Source: a virus. Taken from it: a stretch of 36,813 nucleotides of DNA. Below the pieces are notes generated by a model. That model did not search any database and was not told where the DNA came from. It worked only from the letters and a program-made list of their open reading frames with translations. How positions within the stretch are numbered: position 1 is the stretch's first letter; the number at the start of each line of letters is the position of its first letter. The position numbers and the translations under genes were made by a program. Positions 24,868 through 28,708 of this stretch are shown here, piece after piece. The stretch covers positions 1 to 36,813 of the IMG/VR virus record IMGVR_UViG_3300037587_000536; one strand, given 5' to 3'.

Positions 24868-25995
24868 ATGGAATCTAACCTAGCGGTATTTGACAAAATC
24901 GAAGCCGGTTTCGCCGAGTTAAAGGCAAACTATAGCCACGCGCCAGACTGCTCGACCACCAAAGGTCTTGAGCAGTGCAAGAAAGACTACCGCGCTGTCC
25001 GAAAGGTAGAAACGGCGATAGAGAATGAGCGTTTAGAGCAAGGAAAAGCCGCTCAATCCCATCTAAAGGAAGTAAAGAAGCGCGCAGAATCTTTGGATTC
25101 ACGAGCAAAGGAGATTAGCGAACCGTTCAAGACGGCCCGTGATGAGCGAGAGATTTACTTGAAAGAACAAGAGCAGATCCGTGTTGACGGCATTAAGGAG
25201 CGCATTCTAAACATCGCCCTATTCATCAATGAGGCACACAACACCAACTCGGAAGGCGTCAGTGCCATTATCGAATCGATCGATCTGATTGACTGCGCCG
25301 ATAACTTCGATGAATTCACCGCCGAAGCGCTGAAGACCAAGCAGGATGTACTCGAGCAGCTTGGCCAGATCCTGCAGCAGAAGAGCCAGGCAGAAGCCGC
25401 CGAGCGCGACCGCCTGGCCGCCGAGCAGGGCCGACTTGAAGCAGAGCGCAAGGCTGCTATCGATCAGCGCATTAACACTCTGCGAATGACCCCTATCGAC
25501 TTCATGAACAAAACTTCCAAAGAGATCAGCGCCAAGATCGACAGCCTTAAGTCCTATGTTATCCCGGCCGAAGACTTTGGCGATCGCTACAACGAAGCAG
25601 TCGGCGCACAGTCCCAGGTGATCGAGCAGCTTGGCATGGCATTGCAGCAGGCGGTTAAGCTGGAAGAGGCCGAAGAGTTGCGCAACAGCCAAGCCGAGTT
25701 CGACAGCCGGACGGCAGAAGCTGAAACCAGCATGGGGCAGAAGCCTGAAGTAGCTGAAAACAACCAGGACGGTCGCAATTATATAAAAGAGGTGGCTGAC
25801 TCGATTGAGTATGCACCAGTAGCTGATCGCTTATTCAAAGAGAAGGAATTCAAAACATCGCTTGATACGTTTGACGGTCGGCAGCAAATGGAATGGTTTT
25901 TTGGTGACGAAGAAATGGGAGAGATGGCCACTGATTACGATACTGAGACTGAATACAGCCTTGAGGTTATCGTTCGCCGCGTAGCAATCAAGTAA
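24868..25995 (+). CDS. Coiled-coil recombination-operon protein, 375 aa
   Basis: The protein is strongly helical and rich in Glu, Lys, Arg and Ala, with heptad-like stretches at about residues 30-115 (RKVETAIENERLEQGKAAQSHLKEVKKRAESL) and 165-200 (EAAERDRLAAEQGRLEAERKAA). Its layout resembles the DUF1351 type of phage proteins, in which an initial coiled coil is followed by a smaller domain. That match is weak and not certain. It lies five bases after the annealing protein gene and upstream of an exonuclease gene, so it may tether DNA, the annealing protein or the nuclease. No Walker motif is seen. Confidence 0.6.
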   Translation: MESNLAVFDKIEAGFAELKANYSHAPDCSTTKGLEQCKKDYRAVRKVETAIENERLEQGKAAQSHLKEVKKRAESLDSRAKEISEPFKTARDEREIYLKEQEQIRVDGIKERILNIALFINEAHNTNSEGVSAIIESIDLIDCADNFDEFTAEALKTKQDVLEQLGQILQQKSQAEAAERDRLAAEQGRLEAERKAAIDQRINTLRMTPIDFMNKTSKEISAKIDSLKSYVIPAEDFGDRYNEAVGAQSQVIEQLGMALQQAVKLEEAEELRNSQAEFDSRTAEAETSMGQKPEVAENNQDGRNYIKEVADSIEYAPVADRLFKEKEFKTSLDTFDGRQQMEWFFGDEEMGEMATDYDTETEYSLEVIVRRVAIK

Positions 25996-26003
25996 CAACC
26001 AAC

Positions 26004-26021
26004 GGCGGCTTAACGGCCGCC
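26004..26021 (+). promoter_or_regulatory. Intergenic hairpin with TTAACG loop
   Basis: GGCGGC (26004-26009) and GCCGCC (26016-26021) pair around TTAACG in the 47-base gap before the exonuclease gene. It shares the GC-stem and TTAA-loop design of the hairpins at 23046 and 23420. No T-run follows, so it is more likely an RNA-stability or processing element than a terminator. Confidence 0.45.
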
Positions 26022-26042
26022 AATAATACGAAGGGTAATACC

Positions 26043-26621
26043 ATGGGATATATTTTAGGGTTCGACACTGAAACAACCGGCCTGCCAGTTTGGAAAGAGC
26101 CGTCAGGTAGCGAAAACCAACCGCACCTTGTCCAACTGGCCGCAGCGCTGTGCGATGAAGTAACCGGCAATGTCGTTTCCAGCATGGATGTGATTATCAA
26201 GCCTGATGGCTGGGTGATCCCACAGGAAGTAATCGATATTCACGGCATTACCAACGAGATGGCGATGGATGTCGGTATCGATGAAGAGCAGGCTCTGGGC
26301 ATGTTCCTTAGCCTCTGTGGTGATCACAAACGAGTTGCGCACAATCGAACCTTTGACCAGCGCATCATTCGGATCGCCTGTAAGCGCTACGCGACCGACC
26401 AGGTTATCGAGAAATGGGCAGATAAAGACAACTTTGACTGCTCCATGTGGATGGCCAAGAAGATCATGAAAGACCTGCCTAACGCCGGGGGCGGGTCGCT
26501 GGCTTCTGCGTATCAATTCTTCACCGGTAAAGAGCTGGAAGGGGCTCACAACGCTATGGTTGATACCAAAGCGTGCATGGAAATCTATTTCGCAATTAAG
26601 AACGGCGATTACCTGAAATGA
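26043..26621 (+). CDS. DnaQ-like 3'-5' exonuclease, 192 aa
   Basis: All three exonuclease motifs of the DnaQ (DEDDh) group are visible. Motif I is FDTETTGLP, with Asp8 and Glu10; motif II is AHNRTFDQRI, with Asp105; motif III is HNAMVDTKA, with His169 and Asp174. Such enzymes degrade DNA or RNA in the 3' to 5' direction. In a phage recombination operon next to an annealing protein the likely role is resection of DNA ends, though proofreading is not excluded. The length suits a stand-alone enzyme. Its stop overlaps the next gene by four bases. Confidence 0.85.
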   Translation: MGYILGFDTETTGLPVWKEPSGSENQPHLVQLAAALCDEVTGNVVSSMDVIIKPDGWVIPQEVIDIHGITNEMAMDVGIDEEQALGMFLSLCGDHKRVAHNRTFDQRIIRIACKRYATDQVIEKWADKDNFDCSMWMAKKIMKDLPNAGGGSLASAYQFFTGKELEGAHNAMVDTKACMEIYFAIKNGDYLK

Positions 26622-26821
26622 CAGCAATGACCGGCGCCGAACGCTCCCGTAAGCTGCGCGATAAGGAAAAGGCCGATGGTACTCAGCGCCTGGTCATGAA
26701 GCTGACCGCAACCGAGCGGGGGTGGATTCAGCAGGGCATGGACATCGGCGGCTTTGAGTGCCACACAGAATTCCTACTGGCAGCGGCGAAGTTTTACAAC
26801 GAAAACCGCGCGGAAACTTAA
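26618..26821 (+). CDS. Small protein with charged N-terminus, 67 aa
   Basis: The ATG overlaps the exonuclease stop. A second in-frame ATG (26627) is also possible. The N-terminal part is very basic and charged (AERSRKLRDKEKADGTQ), followed by a short helix-strand-helix segment (MKLTATERGWIQQGMDIGGFECHTEFLLAAAKF). This layout is like ribbon-helix-helix or antirepressor-like small phage proteins. Function is not known. Confidence 0.55.
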   Translation: MTAMTGAERSRKLRDKEKADGTQRLVMKLTATERGWIQQGMDIGGFECHTEFLLAAAKFYNENRAET

Positions 26822-26860
26822 ATTGTTGCGCGTAACGAAGTATAATAATGGAGAAAACCA

Positions 26861-27037
26861 ATGAACTACGAATGCCAGGATAACGACGGATTTGAAGATC
26901 AGCTAACGGTTGGCCAAACCTACAAGGGCGTACAGCGCGGTGGCTCAGTTCAAGTTGAGAACGATAACGGCGTGCCTTGTTGGTATGGCCTGAGCAAGTT
27001 CGGGCCAGGCTCTGCGGAGCCAAGCGAATACGACTAG
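26861..27037 (+). CDS. Small acidic protein, 58 aa
   Basis: ATG is seven bases after GGAG, in a leader whose 17 bases (26847-26863) are identical to those before the 151-aa structural gene at 2213. A perfect TATAAT lies at 26841-26846, but no good -35 box is spaced to it, so an internal promoter is possible but weak. The protein is acidic and Gly-rich (NDGFEDQLTVGQTYKGV, then CWYGLSKFGPGSAEPSEYD). Family not recognised. Confidence 0.6.
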   Translation: MNYECQDNDGFEDQLTVGQTYKGVQRGGSVQVENDNGVPCWYGLSKFGPGSAEPSEYD

Positions 27038-27107
27038 ATCGCTCGAAGTCGGGCGGTCGTTACTTTCCTACGAAGCCACAACGAATAAGGGATAGAGGAC
27101 AAAAACG

Positions 27108-28505
27108 ATGATTTATGGATCAGTTTGCAGCGGGATCGAGTCGGCCAGTGTGGCCTGGGAGCCGCTCGGTATGACCCCGGCTTGGTTCTCCGAGATAGAA
27201 GCGTTTCCGTCTGCCGTGCTGGCCCATCATTGGCCGGACGTGACCAACTTGGGCGACATGACAACGCTGTCGGCTAAGATCTTGCGCGGAGATATCAAAG
27301 CACCAGACATCCTAGTAGGCGGGACACCTTGCCAGGCATTCAGCGTAGCCGGTAACCGTCAGTCTCTGGACGACGAGCGCGGCCAGCTAACCCTTTCCTA
27401 TGTGGAGATAGCCAATGCAATTGACCATGTTAGACGACGAGCCGGACAGCCCGAGTGCGTCACCTGCTGGGAAAACGTGCCAGGAGTACTCAGCACAAAA
27501 GATAACGCCTTCGGTTGCTTCCTCGCAGCCCTGGTGGGCGAATCCGAAACGCTTGAGCCGGCAGGGGAAAAATGGACGAACGCTGGTTGTGTGTATGGAC
27601 CCGAAAGAGCAGCAGCATGGCGGATTCTGGATGCCCAATATTTCGGAGTGGCCCAACGACGCCGCCGTGTGTTTGTTATCGCAAGTGCTAGAGCAGGATT
27701 CGATCCCTCAGCGGTACTTTTTGAGTCAGAAGGCGTGCGCCGGGATATTGCGCCGAGCCGAGAAGCGCCGCCGCCGGTTGCCGCCCTTACTGCAAACGGC
27801 GTTGGAACGTGTGGCGCAGACGACAACCAAGCCCAAGCCCAAGCCGGACATTTAACAGTTGCCACACTGGATGCTTCGTATGGACGGTTACAGGGTTGCA
27901 GCGGCCAAGATATGAACCACGGTCACTCGCATTTAGTAACCTGTTTCCACCCTACACAGGACCCCATTAGCTCTAGCGAAATTAGCCATGCCATCGGAAC
28001 GGGGTCGAGCGGCGGCTCCGCGTCGTCTGCGGTGGCCATCAGTGGTCAAGAAACGCTAACGCCATGGGAGCAGCAGGGGCGGCGGGTTCAGGGTGTCAAT
28101 GGCGTATCGCCCACGCTAATGAGTAACCCAAACGGTGGTATGAAGCTGGAGCCGGTTCTTGCTCCATGCGTAGCCTTCGCACAGAACAGTCGCAACGAGC
28201 TCAGACTGGAAGGCGGCGATGGTCAGCGTACAGGCGCATTGTCGGCCAGCAGTAGTGCCAAACCAGGGCAGGGCGTACCAGCTATCGCGGGGGCTGGTGT
28301 AGTCCGCCGTCTAACTCCAATTGAATGCGAACGCCTGCAAGGCTTTGCGGATGATCACACCCGAATCCCCTGGCGCAACAAGCAGCCAGAGAACTGCCGG
28401 GACGGCCCACGATATAAAGCTATCGGCAACAGCAAAGCGGTTCCGGTGGTGCGCTGGATCGGTGAGCGTATTCAACAGGAGGCAGCACGATGTCTGACAT
28501 CATAA
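27108..28505 (+). CDS. C5 cytosine DNA methyltransferase, 465 aa
   Basis: The ordered motifs of C5 methyltransferases are present: I, GSVCSGIESASVAWEPLG (AdoMet site); IV, GGTPCQAFSVAG (catalytic Cys75 in PCQ); VI, ENVPG (Glu122); VIII, QRRRRVFVIA (183-192); IX, near RRLTPIECERLQGF; X, near YKAIGNSKAVPV. The target recognition region between VIII and IX (residues ~195-405) is long and low-complexity, as in phage orphan enzymes. It would methylate phage or host DNA to evade restriction or set timing. An open reading frame in another frame, with its own ribosome binding site, is nested inside motifs V-VIII (27415-27855). It overlaps the next gene by 16 bases. Confidence 0.9.
   Translation: MIYGSVCSGIESASVAWEPLGMTPAWFSEIEAFPSAVLAHHWPDVTNLGDMTTLSAKILRGDIKAPDILVGGTPCQAFSVAGNRQSLDDERGQLTLSYVEIANAIDHVRRRAGQPECVTCWENVPGVLSTKDNAFGCFLAALVGESETLEPAGEKWTNAGCVYGPERAAAWRILDAQYFGVAQRRRRVFVIASARAGFDPSAVLFESEGVRRDIAPSREAPPPVAALTANGVGTCGADDNQAQAQAGHLTVATLDASYGRLQGCSGQDMNHGHSHLVTCFHPTQDPISSSEISHAIGTGSSGGSASSAVAISGQETLTPWEQQGRRVQGVNGVSPTLMSNPNGGMKLEPVLAPCVAFAQNSRNELRLEGGDGQRTGALSASSSAKPGQGVPAIAGAGVVRRLTPIECERLQGFADDHTRIPWRNKQPENCRDGPRYKAIGNSKAVPVVRWIGERIQQEAARCLTS
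27415..27855 (+). CDS. Protein nested out of frame inside the cytosine methyltransferase gene, 146 aa
   Basis: The frame has an ideal ribosome binding site, GGAGATAGCCA directly before ATG. It lies wholly inside the methyltransferase gene in another frame. The predicted protein is not random-looking. It has a Ser/Pro-rich start, WWANPKRLSRQGKNGRTLVV, and then a patterned half with PNISEWPNDAAVCLLSQVLE, IPQRYFLSQKACAGILRRAEKRRRRLPPLL. I recall similar sequences annotated near phage C5 methyltransferases, but that memory is unchecked. It may be a partner or regulator of the enzyme, translated from the same message, or a chance open frame. Confidence 0.55.
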   Translation: MQLTMLDDEPDSPSASPAGKTCQEYSAQKITPSVASSQPWWANPKRLSRQGKNGRTLVVCMDPKEQQHGGFWMPNISEWPNDAAVCLLSQVLEQDSIPQRYFLSQKACAGILRRAEKRRRRLPPLLQTALERVAQTTTKPKPKPDI

Positions 28506-28708
28506 TCGGCATCGTCGGAGGGTCTGCGATTTTTCTGGCGATGGATCACCGGCAACATGTTCGCAAGTGGGGACCAGTATTGGGCCTTATCACTCAGCCT
28601 TTCTGGTTCTGGATGACTTGGTCAAATGAGTTGTGGGGAGTGTTCGCACTTTGCCCGCTCTATACATGGGGCTGGTGGCGTGGATTCAAGAGAGAGTGGT
28701 TCAAGTGA
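28490..28708 (+). CDS. Small membrane protein with about three TM segments, 72 aa
   Basis: The start overlaps the end of the methyltransferase gene by 16 bases. Hydrophobic, Trp- and Phe-rich segments at residues ~3-19 (DIIIGIVGGSAIFLAMD), ~28-44 (WGPVLGLITQPFWFWMT) and ~48-64 (LWGVFALCPLYTWGWWR) make up most of the protein. The ends are short and basic (FKREWFK). An early membrane protein of this form may be involved in superinfection control or host membrane change. It is not homologous in appearance to the holin of this phage. Confidence 0.6.
   Translation: MSDIIIGIVGGSAIFLAMDHRQHVRKWGPVLGLITQPFWFWMTWSNELWGVFALCPLYTWGWWRGFKREWFK

Follow-up and report, generated by a model that had tools for sequence, protein, structure and literature searches.

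Organization of the locus

The window (the whole stretch of DNA analysed, 36,813 nucleotides of the IMG/VR virus record IMGVR_UViG_3300037587_000536) carries a gene for a C5-cytosine DNA methyltransferase (MTase) and, lying wholly inside it and shifted to the +1 frame, a second open reading frame (ORF) of 146 codons (Table 1). The product of the outer gene is recognized by the Pfam family PF00145 (E 1.8e-36), by TIGR00675 (E 1e-32) and by phrog_116 (E 4e-86), and its AlphaFold2 model resembles HhaI/HaeIII (Foldseek E 4.5e-9). This model is confident for most of residues 1-208 and for residues 397-465; pLDDT is below 50 for residues 209-386 and 388-393, where the alignment is thin and hypervariable and the low score is by itself no proof of disorder. 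The MTase also matches positions 654-1052 of phrog_864 (2.4e-48), a family of 1064 positions named DNA primase; either primase-MTase fusions are involved or the family name is misleading. A 72-aa ORF that looks like a membrane protein (28490-28708) begins within the last MTase codons, with an overlap of 16 nt.

The inner ORF begins past motif IV, spans motifs VI and VIII and stops in the long variable region of the MTase, about 450 nt upstream of motif IX. Both its extent and the GGAGA just upstream of its ATG had been given correctly in a first-pass annotation of this DNA. A TAG in the same frame (27409-27411) lies one codon upstream of the ATG, which is thus effectively the sole upstream start. 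An antisense ORF of 155 aa also covers this stretch (minus strand, 27398-27865); it is probably a by-product, since the antisense frames lack a stop avoidance comparable to that of the +1 frame.

Table 1. Features of the methyltransferase gene and of the ORF nested within it (positions in the window)
Feature	Position	Strand	Remarks
Outer ORF, C5-cytosine DNA methyltransferase, 465 aa	27108..28505	+	Motifs I, IV, VI, VIII, IX and X in frame
Outer motif IV, GGTPCQAFS	27318-27344		
Outer motif VI, ENVPG	27471-27485		
Outer motif VIII, AQRRRRVFVIA	27651..27683	+	Final well-ordered element ahead of the linker
Outer aa 209-393, variable region from motif VIII to IX	27732..28286	+	Without confident fold in the model
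Outer motif IX, RRLTPIECERLQGF	28305..28346	+	
Outer motif X, RYKAIGNS	28410..28433	+	
GGAGA, ribosome-binding-like site	27404..27408	+	6 nt ahead of the inner ATG
Inner ORF, +1 frame of the MTase, 146 aa, ATG start; proposed beta-like MTase subunit	27415..27855	+	Wholly inside 27108..28505
Inner N-terminal part, aa 1-86	27415..27672	+	Low confidence, probably disordered; overprinted on motifs VI-VIII
Inner C-terminal domain, aa 87-135, LLSQVLEQDSIPQRYFLSQKACAGILRRAEKRRRRLPPLLQTALERVA	27673..27819	+	Helices 88-93, 105-117 and 124-135

Coding capacity of the inner frame

MTases for comparison were picked from IMG/VR only by their N-terminal 102 residues, a stretch that ends ahead of the inner ORF; eight named phage loci and the window were added, and removal of near-duplicates left 54 genes. 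Of these 54 non-redundant MTases, 52 have an open +1 frame between motif VI and a point 42 codons beyond motif VIII; synonymous reshuffling based on the codon usage of each gene gives 11.1 as the expectation. Over the same stretch the +2 frame is open in one (1.1 expected). Both exceptions, L119 and L167, have broken MTase frames. Among 52 non-redundant relatives, 51 have an ATG at the corresponding position, and in 22 a match resembling a Shine-Dalgarno sequence lies ahead of the inner start. Stop cells in the +1 frame amount to 0.0008, compared with 0.0389 in the null, and comparable avoidance is found in no other frame.

Third bases at synonymous sites of the MTase are saturated elsewhere in the gene (identity 0.33), reach 0.6-0.9 inside the inner ORF and fall at its stop. 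At four-fold sites, identity is mostly 0.25-0.37 outside the inner ORF, about 0.44-0.46 at its start, 0.88-0.90 over parts of its C-terminus and 0.30 at its stop. Amino acid identity in the +1 frame was compared with a synonymous-shuffle null in 1078 pairs of genes whose synonymous sites are saturated elsewhere. It was 0.667 for the inner C-terminal part (null 0.228), 0.557 for the middle part (null 0.303) and 0.372 for the N-terminal part (null 0.258), the last being a weaker but real constraint; flanking control regions in the MTase gene were at or near the null. Within outer codons 211-225, conservation is highest at the outer third base, which is position 2 of the inner codon, and lowest at the outer first base, as corresponds to the phase of the inner codons. 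A megablast search of positions 24868-28708 against phage records matched mainly the inner-ORF stretch, and several phage matches, three Pseudomonas phages among them, start exactly at 27415 and end by 27762-27839.

The inner frame might be regarded as a mere, untranslated shadow of a conserved MTase with biased codons. Conservation of outer motifs VI and VIII is indeed strong, and these motifs dictate some of the inner N-terminus, whose GKT is ENVPG read in the +1 frame. A shadow does not, however, account for synonymous conservation that is far above that of the rest of the gene and ends at the inner stop codon, for an inner identity that, in saturated pairs, is roughly threefold that of the synonymous-shuffle null, for strong stop avoidance in the +1 frame only, or for outer codons 211-225 being more conserved in the inner than in the outer phase. 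A chance ORF or shadow, which retains hardly any probability, was ruled out by these synonymous-shuffle tests, for which regions within the gene and the other frames served as controls. A conserved DNA or RNA element without protein product (a structure, or a binding or packaging site) would explain the synonymous suppression and the high nucleotide conservation over about 440 nt, but not the inner-codon periodicity, with inner third positions the most variable, the selective avoidance of stops in the +1 frame, or the retention of amino acids in relatives with diverged nucleotides, and such an element is highly improbable.

These sequence comparisons strongly support the inner ORF as an overlapping gene that is both genuine and old. 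The first-pass annotation had proposed a true overlapping gene pair, to be checked in homologous MTases; in these the inner length, start and open frame are kept, and variation at synonymous MTase sites is suppressed precisely across the extent of the inner ORF. Its further argument, that the predicted protein does not look random, holds for the second half, which has a strong signal of its own, whereas the first half, rich in Pro and Ser, follows in part from the MTase frame and is predicted to be disordered.

Fold of the inner protein and its likeness to the MTase linker

The inner protein was modelled with AlphaFold2 on an alignment of 130 inner proteins. Residues up to 90 have a pLDDT of about 48-61 in blocks, and the C-terminal domain, which is basic and helical, is modelled confidently, with pLDDT 94-98 in residue blocks 101-130. 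A fold search with this model gave no significant match, and none in the PDB, and the sequence was assigned to no family in Pfam or NCBIfam and matched none of the PDB sequences.

The conserved core of the inner protein, LSxILExxVxxKYFLSxxAxxGILRRA, aligns with a segment that ordinary C5-MTases, for example Dcm, carry in frame directly after motif VIII. When compared by hhalign with such a Dcm-type segment, the core scored 33.6 (E 1.1e-4), as against 16.6 or less for 60 column-permuted controls; in absolute terms the match is modest (probability 56%, one comparison, templates mostly Dcm-like). The core is also co-linear with the linker: its start overlies residue 189 of the outer protein and with it the end of motif VIII. 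Judged by these alignments, the folded inner domain (about 50 residues) resembles the linker or hinge that connects motif VIII of C5-MTases to the target-recognition region. Most of the C-terminal helices are missing from the streptococcal versions, and the inner domain is therefore not fully constant.

Distribution and annotation

By tblastn, the inner protein matched 125 phage records (184 with a relative as query) and also 542 plasmid records, mostly P1-like plasmid prophages. Matching records of Escherichia plasmids, again mostly P1-like, number 449. A scan of IMG/VR with an inner-ORF pattern returned at least 600 rows, and the inner ORF was found in 302 stretches of bacterial genomes. Hosts of the viruses include Proteobacteria, Streptococcus, gut Firmicutes, Mycobacterium, Akkermansia and Methanobacterium (virus Drs3), and the +1 frame is used in every group, be it proteobacterial, firmicute, actinobacterial, Akkermansia or archaeal.

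Among 385 profile hits over 381 partly redundant loci, taken from the best 80 of each scan, 383 are the +1 frame of an MTase, and the remaining two are the broken records L119 and L167. Profiles run over these loci, which derive from four viral scans and one genome scan (best 80 each), found no stand-alone copy of the inner ORF; three of the viral scans and the genome scan had been seeded with nested copies. The first-pass annotation had mentioned related sequences near phage methyltransferases and had suggested a search for stand-alone copies. Related sequences do exist, inside MTase genes and not as separate neighbours, and supposed stand-alone relatives proved to be second halves of overlapping split MTases.

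Nearly all annotations examined lack the inner ORF, the exceptions among them being orf14 of phage MM1 ("C5 methyltransferase beta subunit"), P0092 gp45 and Thibault gp104. The PHROGs collection contains part of the inner family as phrog_16143, labelled DNA methyltransferase. This profile found no match in four bacterial genomes known to carry the proteobacterial form and is thus too narrow for counting the family.

Split and exchanged frames

In two distinct contigs (L221 and L223), the outer ORF ends right past motif VIII as an alpha chain of 178 aa, and the +1 ORF contains, in this order, the overprinted N-terminus, DILEEKVDRKYFVS, the recognition region, RRLTPTECERLQGFPDSW (motif IX) and RYKTLGNAV (motif X). 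To judge from their motifs, these two clearly represent a split MTase in canonical order. A similar exchange of frames occurs in other branches (L015, L301 and L353), in single records where indels are possible. Mycobacterium phages PetiteSangsue and MadKillah and Streptomyces phage RemusLoopin have annotated pairs in the same +1 relation, and the second ORFs (betas) of these actinophage pairs match phrog_116 at motifs IX-X (1e-9 to 2e-5) as well as phrog_1008. In Paenibacillus phage Bloom (L321) and mycobacteriophage Bubbles123 (L323), the nested +1 ORF has a IX-like motif, and the outer ORF has motif X. The outer frame holds motif IX, as in the window, in 320 of 378 loci (from the best 80 of each scan), as placed by a regular expression that left 47 of the 378 unclassified. 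Constant across the loci examined is the linker, which lies in the +1 frame whichever frame holds the rest of the C-terminus; these sister arrangements explain the linker-like nature of the inner core.

In mycobacteriophages Phoebus (L172 2302-3418) and Thibault (L173 1356-3157), the C5-MTase is in pieces, with an outer ORF, a +1 inner ORF and a separate downstream ORF bearing motif IX; an HNH endonuclease gene lies within the Thibault series. In L119 and L167, the MTase N-terminus runs straight into the inner C-terminus in one ORF, through assembly indels or as natural fusions. The MTase of a large-phage contig (L239 1150-3054) has an apparent intein at its catalytic PC motif, recognized by eye (GGFPC/FTGDTLV...LAGRYLGDGW...SFVANNCIAHN/CAKFS), and its +1 frame is broken upstream. 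Just a short inner ORF with a DILE-like core is left in L239, L244 and L245.

Proposed role of the inner protein

The inner product is probably a small beta-like piece of the MTase that provides the linker in trans, making a two-chain enzyme. The reality of the gene, its fixed +1 geometry, the likeness of its core to the linker and the sister split forms can be read from the sequences themselves, and we infer that the inner protein is translated in vivo, binds the MTase and is required for its activity. In this scheme, an unstructured inner N-terminus, overprinted on motifs VI-VIII, would be followed by the folded linker-like domain. In the lineage of the window, only the +1 frame would encode the linker; in the outer frame these bases would give a loose connector, after which the variable region and motifs IX and X would follow. 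Translated from a start of its own on the shared message, the inner protein would bind the MTase and supply the missing linker in trans. Read most economically, these MTases would have turned into two-frame enzymes, with the +1 ORF as the beta chain that holds the linker, and the class represented by the window would keep the recognition region and motifs IX-X in the outer chain. The confidence gap of the outer model, from residue 209 to 393, agrees with a missing linker, in a region that is also poorly aligned.

Alternatively, ribosomes could undergo a programmed +1 frameshift near motif VIII, so that the inner C-terminal segment would mainly be produced joined to the N-terminal part of the MTase; such a fusion, with motifs I-VIII and the linker, would again have its elements in canonical order as far as the linker. 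L119 and L167 have just such a joined ORF, probably because of indels. A frameshift, however, has no need of about 60 open +1 codons ahead of motif VIII or of an ATG kept in nearly all relatives, and its product would lack motifs IX-X, which makes this route improbable.

Three observations weigh against an overlapping gene that is real and has a function independent of MTase assembly, whether as an MTase regulator, an anti-restriction factor or a protein binding DNA or host proteins. In the loci from the best 80 of each scan the inner ORF never occurs apart from an MTase, its core both resembles the MTase linker and is co-linear with it, and in L221, L223 and the actinophages the same +1 ORF provides the half of the enzyme that bears motifs IX-X. 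An independent function is accordingly judged unlikely, yet it is the main alternative: the open-frame, synonymous-site and identity evidence for a real gene fits it equally well, the inner C-terminal domain is basic and helical, and regulators encoded in overlapping frames exist, as in the com/mom genes of phage Mu. The role of regulator suggested in the first-pass annotation is not supported; given the likeness to the linker and the continuation of the +1 ORF into motifs IX-X in several viruses, an enzyme subunit is the better reading.

The two-chain reading can be extended, more tentatively and with slightly less than even confidence, to many phage C5-MTases. From P1 to the viruses of methanogens, these may be obligate two-protein enzymes in which the MTase chain, though seemingly complete, lacks its hinge or linker, this segment being encoded out of frame within the gene. 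Nested, split and three-part forms would interconvert by frame exchange downstream of the linker, and the reading frame would act as an evolving module boundary.

Novelty and significance

Two-chain C5-MTases (M.EcoHK31I and M.AquI) and the annotation of "alpha/beta subunits" in phage MM1 are already known. No description of the nested ORF as a general feature was found in the literature searched, most subscription journals lying outside it. The breadth of its occurrence, the evidence of constraint and the exchange of frames appear to be undescribed in that literature; new, along with breadth and constraint evidence, is the variant with motifs IX-X kept in the outer frame.

An almost unannotated, strongly constrained overlapping gene resides within a common class of phage anti-restriction genes, P1 dmt included, and is spread over hundreds of phages, among them viruses of several bacterial phyla and of an archaeon. 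Should the inner protein be a subunit, work on cloned or annotated "single-chain" phage MTases has dealt with an incomplete enzyme wherever the MTase gene had undergone codon optimisation, by which the inner ORF would be destroyed, and the oddity of M.EcoHK31I would be one example of a widespread architecture. The loci also provide a large natural data set on the co-evolution of two overlapping frames, together with a directly testable prediction.

Comparison with known systems

The dmt gene of phage P1 contains the same +1 inner ORF (NC_005856.1, about 66728-67198; L003 3001-3471), unannotated in P1, whose product is 49% identical to the inner protein of the window; Dmt differs in being fused to a Dam-like adenine MTase. 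The N-terminal part of phrog_1008 ("DNA methyltransferase", 329 positions) matches inner ORFs (best 4e-5 in single-protein scans), and the betas of the actinophages and of the Paenibacillus phage match this family at 3e-32 to 1e-94. It differs from the inner ORF in being longer and in having IX-like, and in some cases X, motifs, and corresponds to the second half of split MTases and not to a short nested ORF.

Streptococcus phage MM1 orf13/orf14, annotated as "C5 methyltransferase alpha/beta subunit" (DQ113772), have the same nested +1 geometry over motifs VI-VIII, with the core CSLSDILEEEVDERYFLS. The profile phrog_16143 is matched by 25 of 33 aligned inner proteins (best 2.3e-86), and by an intermediate (L008, 9.4e-13) that also aligns with the inner protein of the window. 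The latter has an extra conserved part, ACxGILRRAEKRGKxLPxxLxxAL, that is largely absent from the streptococcal proteins. By its geometry and through intermediate sequences, the inner ORF of the window appears to belong with MM1 orf14, the direct match of its protein to phrog_16143 being weak (E 0.074).

The smaller polypeptide of M.EcoHK31I is reportedly encoded in an alternative frame within the gene of the larger one. The window is similar in that its inner ORF is nested in the MTase gene in the +1 frame. As summarised in PMC3404938, M.EcoHK31I is a C5-MTase (YGGCCR) of two polypeptides, the larger of which contains motifs I-VIII and X (Lee, Kam and Shaw, 1995). Judged by that summary (PMC3404938), Bloom and Bubbles123, with the IX-like motif nested and motif X outer, look M.EcoHK31I-like. 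In the window, in contrast, motif IX sits in the outer ORF, and the inner protein has no motif IX, the linker-like domain being all that it carries. Since the outer ORF has motifs IX and X itself, the inner piece, unlike that of M.EcoHK31I, supplies no catalytic motif.

M.AquI is a split C5-MTase with motifs I-VIII in its alpha chain and motifs IX-X in its beta chain (PMC3404938). L221, L223 and the actinophage pairs (L319, L320 and L322) share this content, with a long +1 overlap, whereas the outer ORF of the window is complete (motifs I-X) and its inner ORF is fully nested rather than a C-terminal half. With motifs IX and X in its outer chain, the window MTase is thus a member of neither the M.EcoHK31I nor the M.AquI type. 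Fragments of M.SssI complement each other best when the C-terminal one begins between motif VIII and the recognition region (PMC3404938), so that assembly in trans at the joint of motif VIII and the recognition region is feasible.
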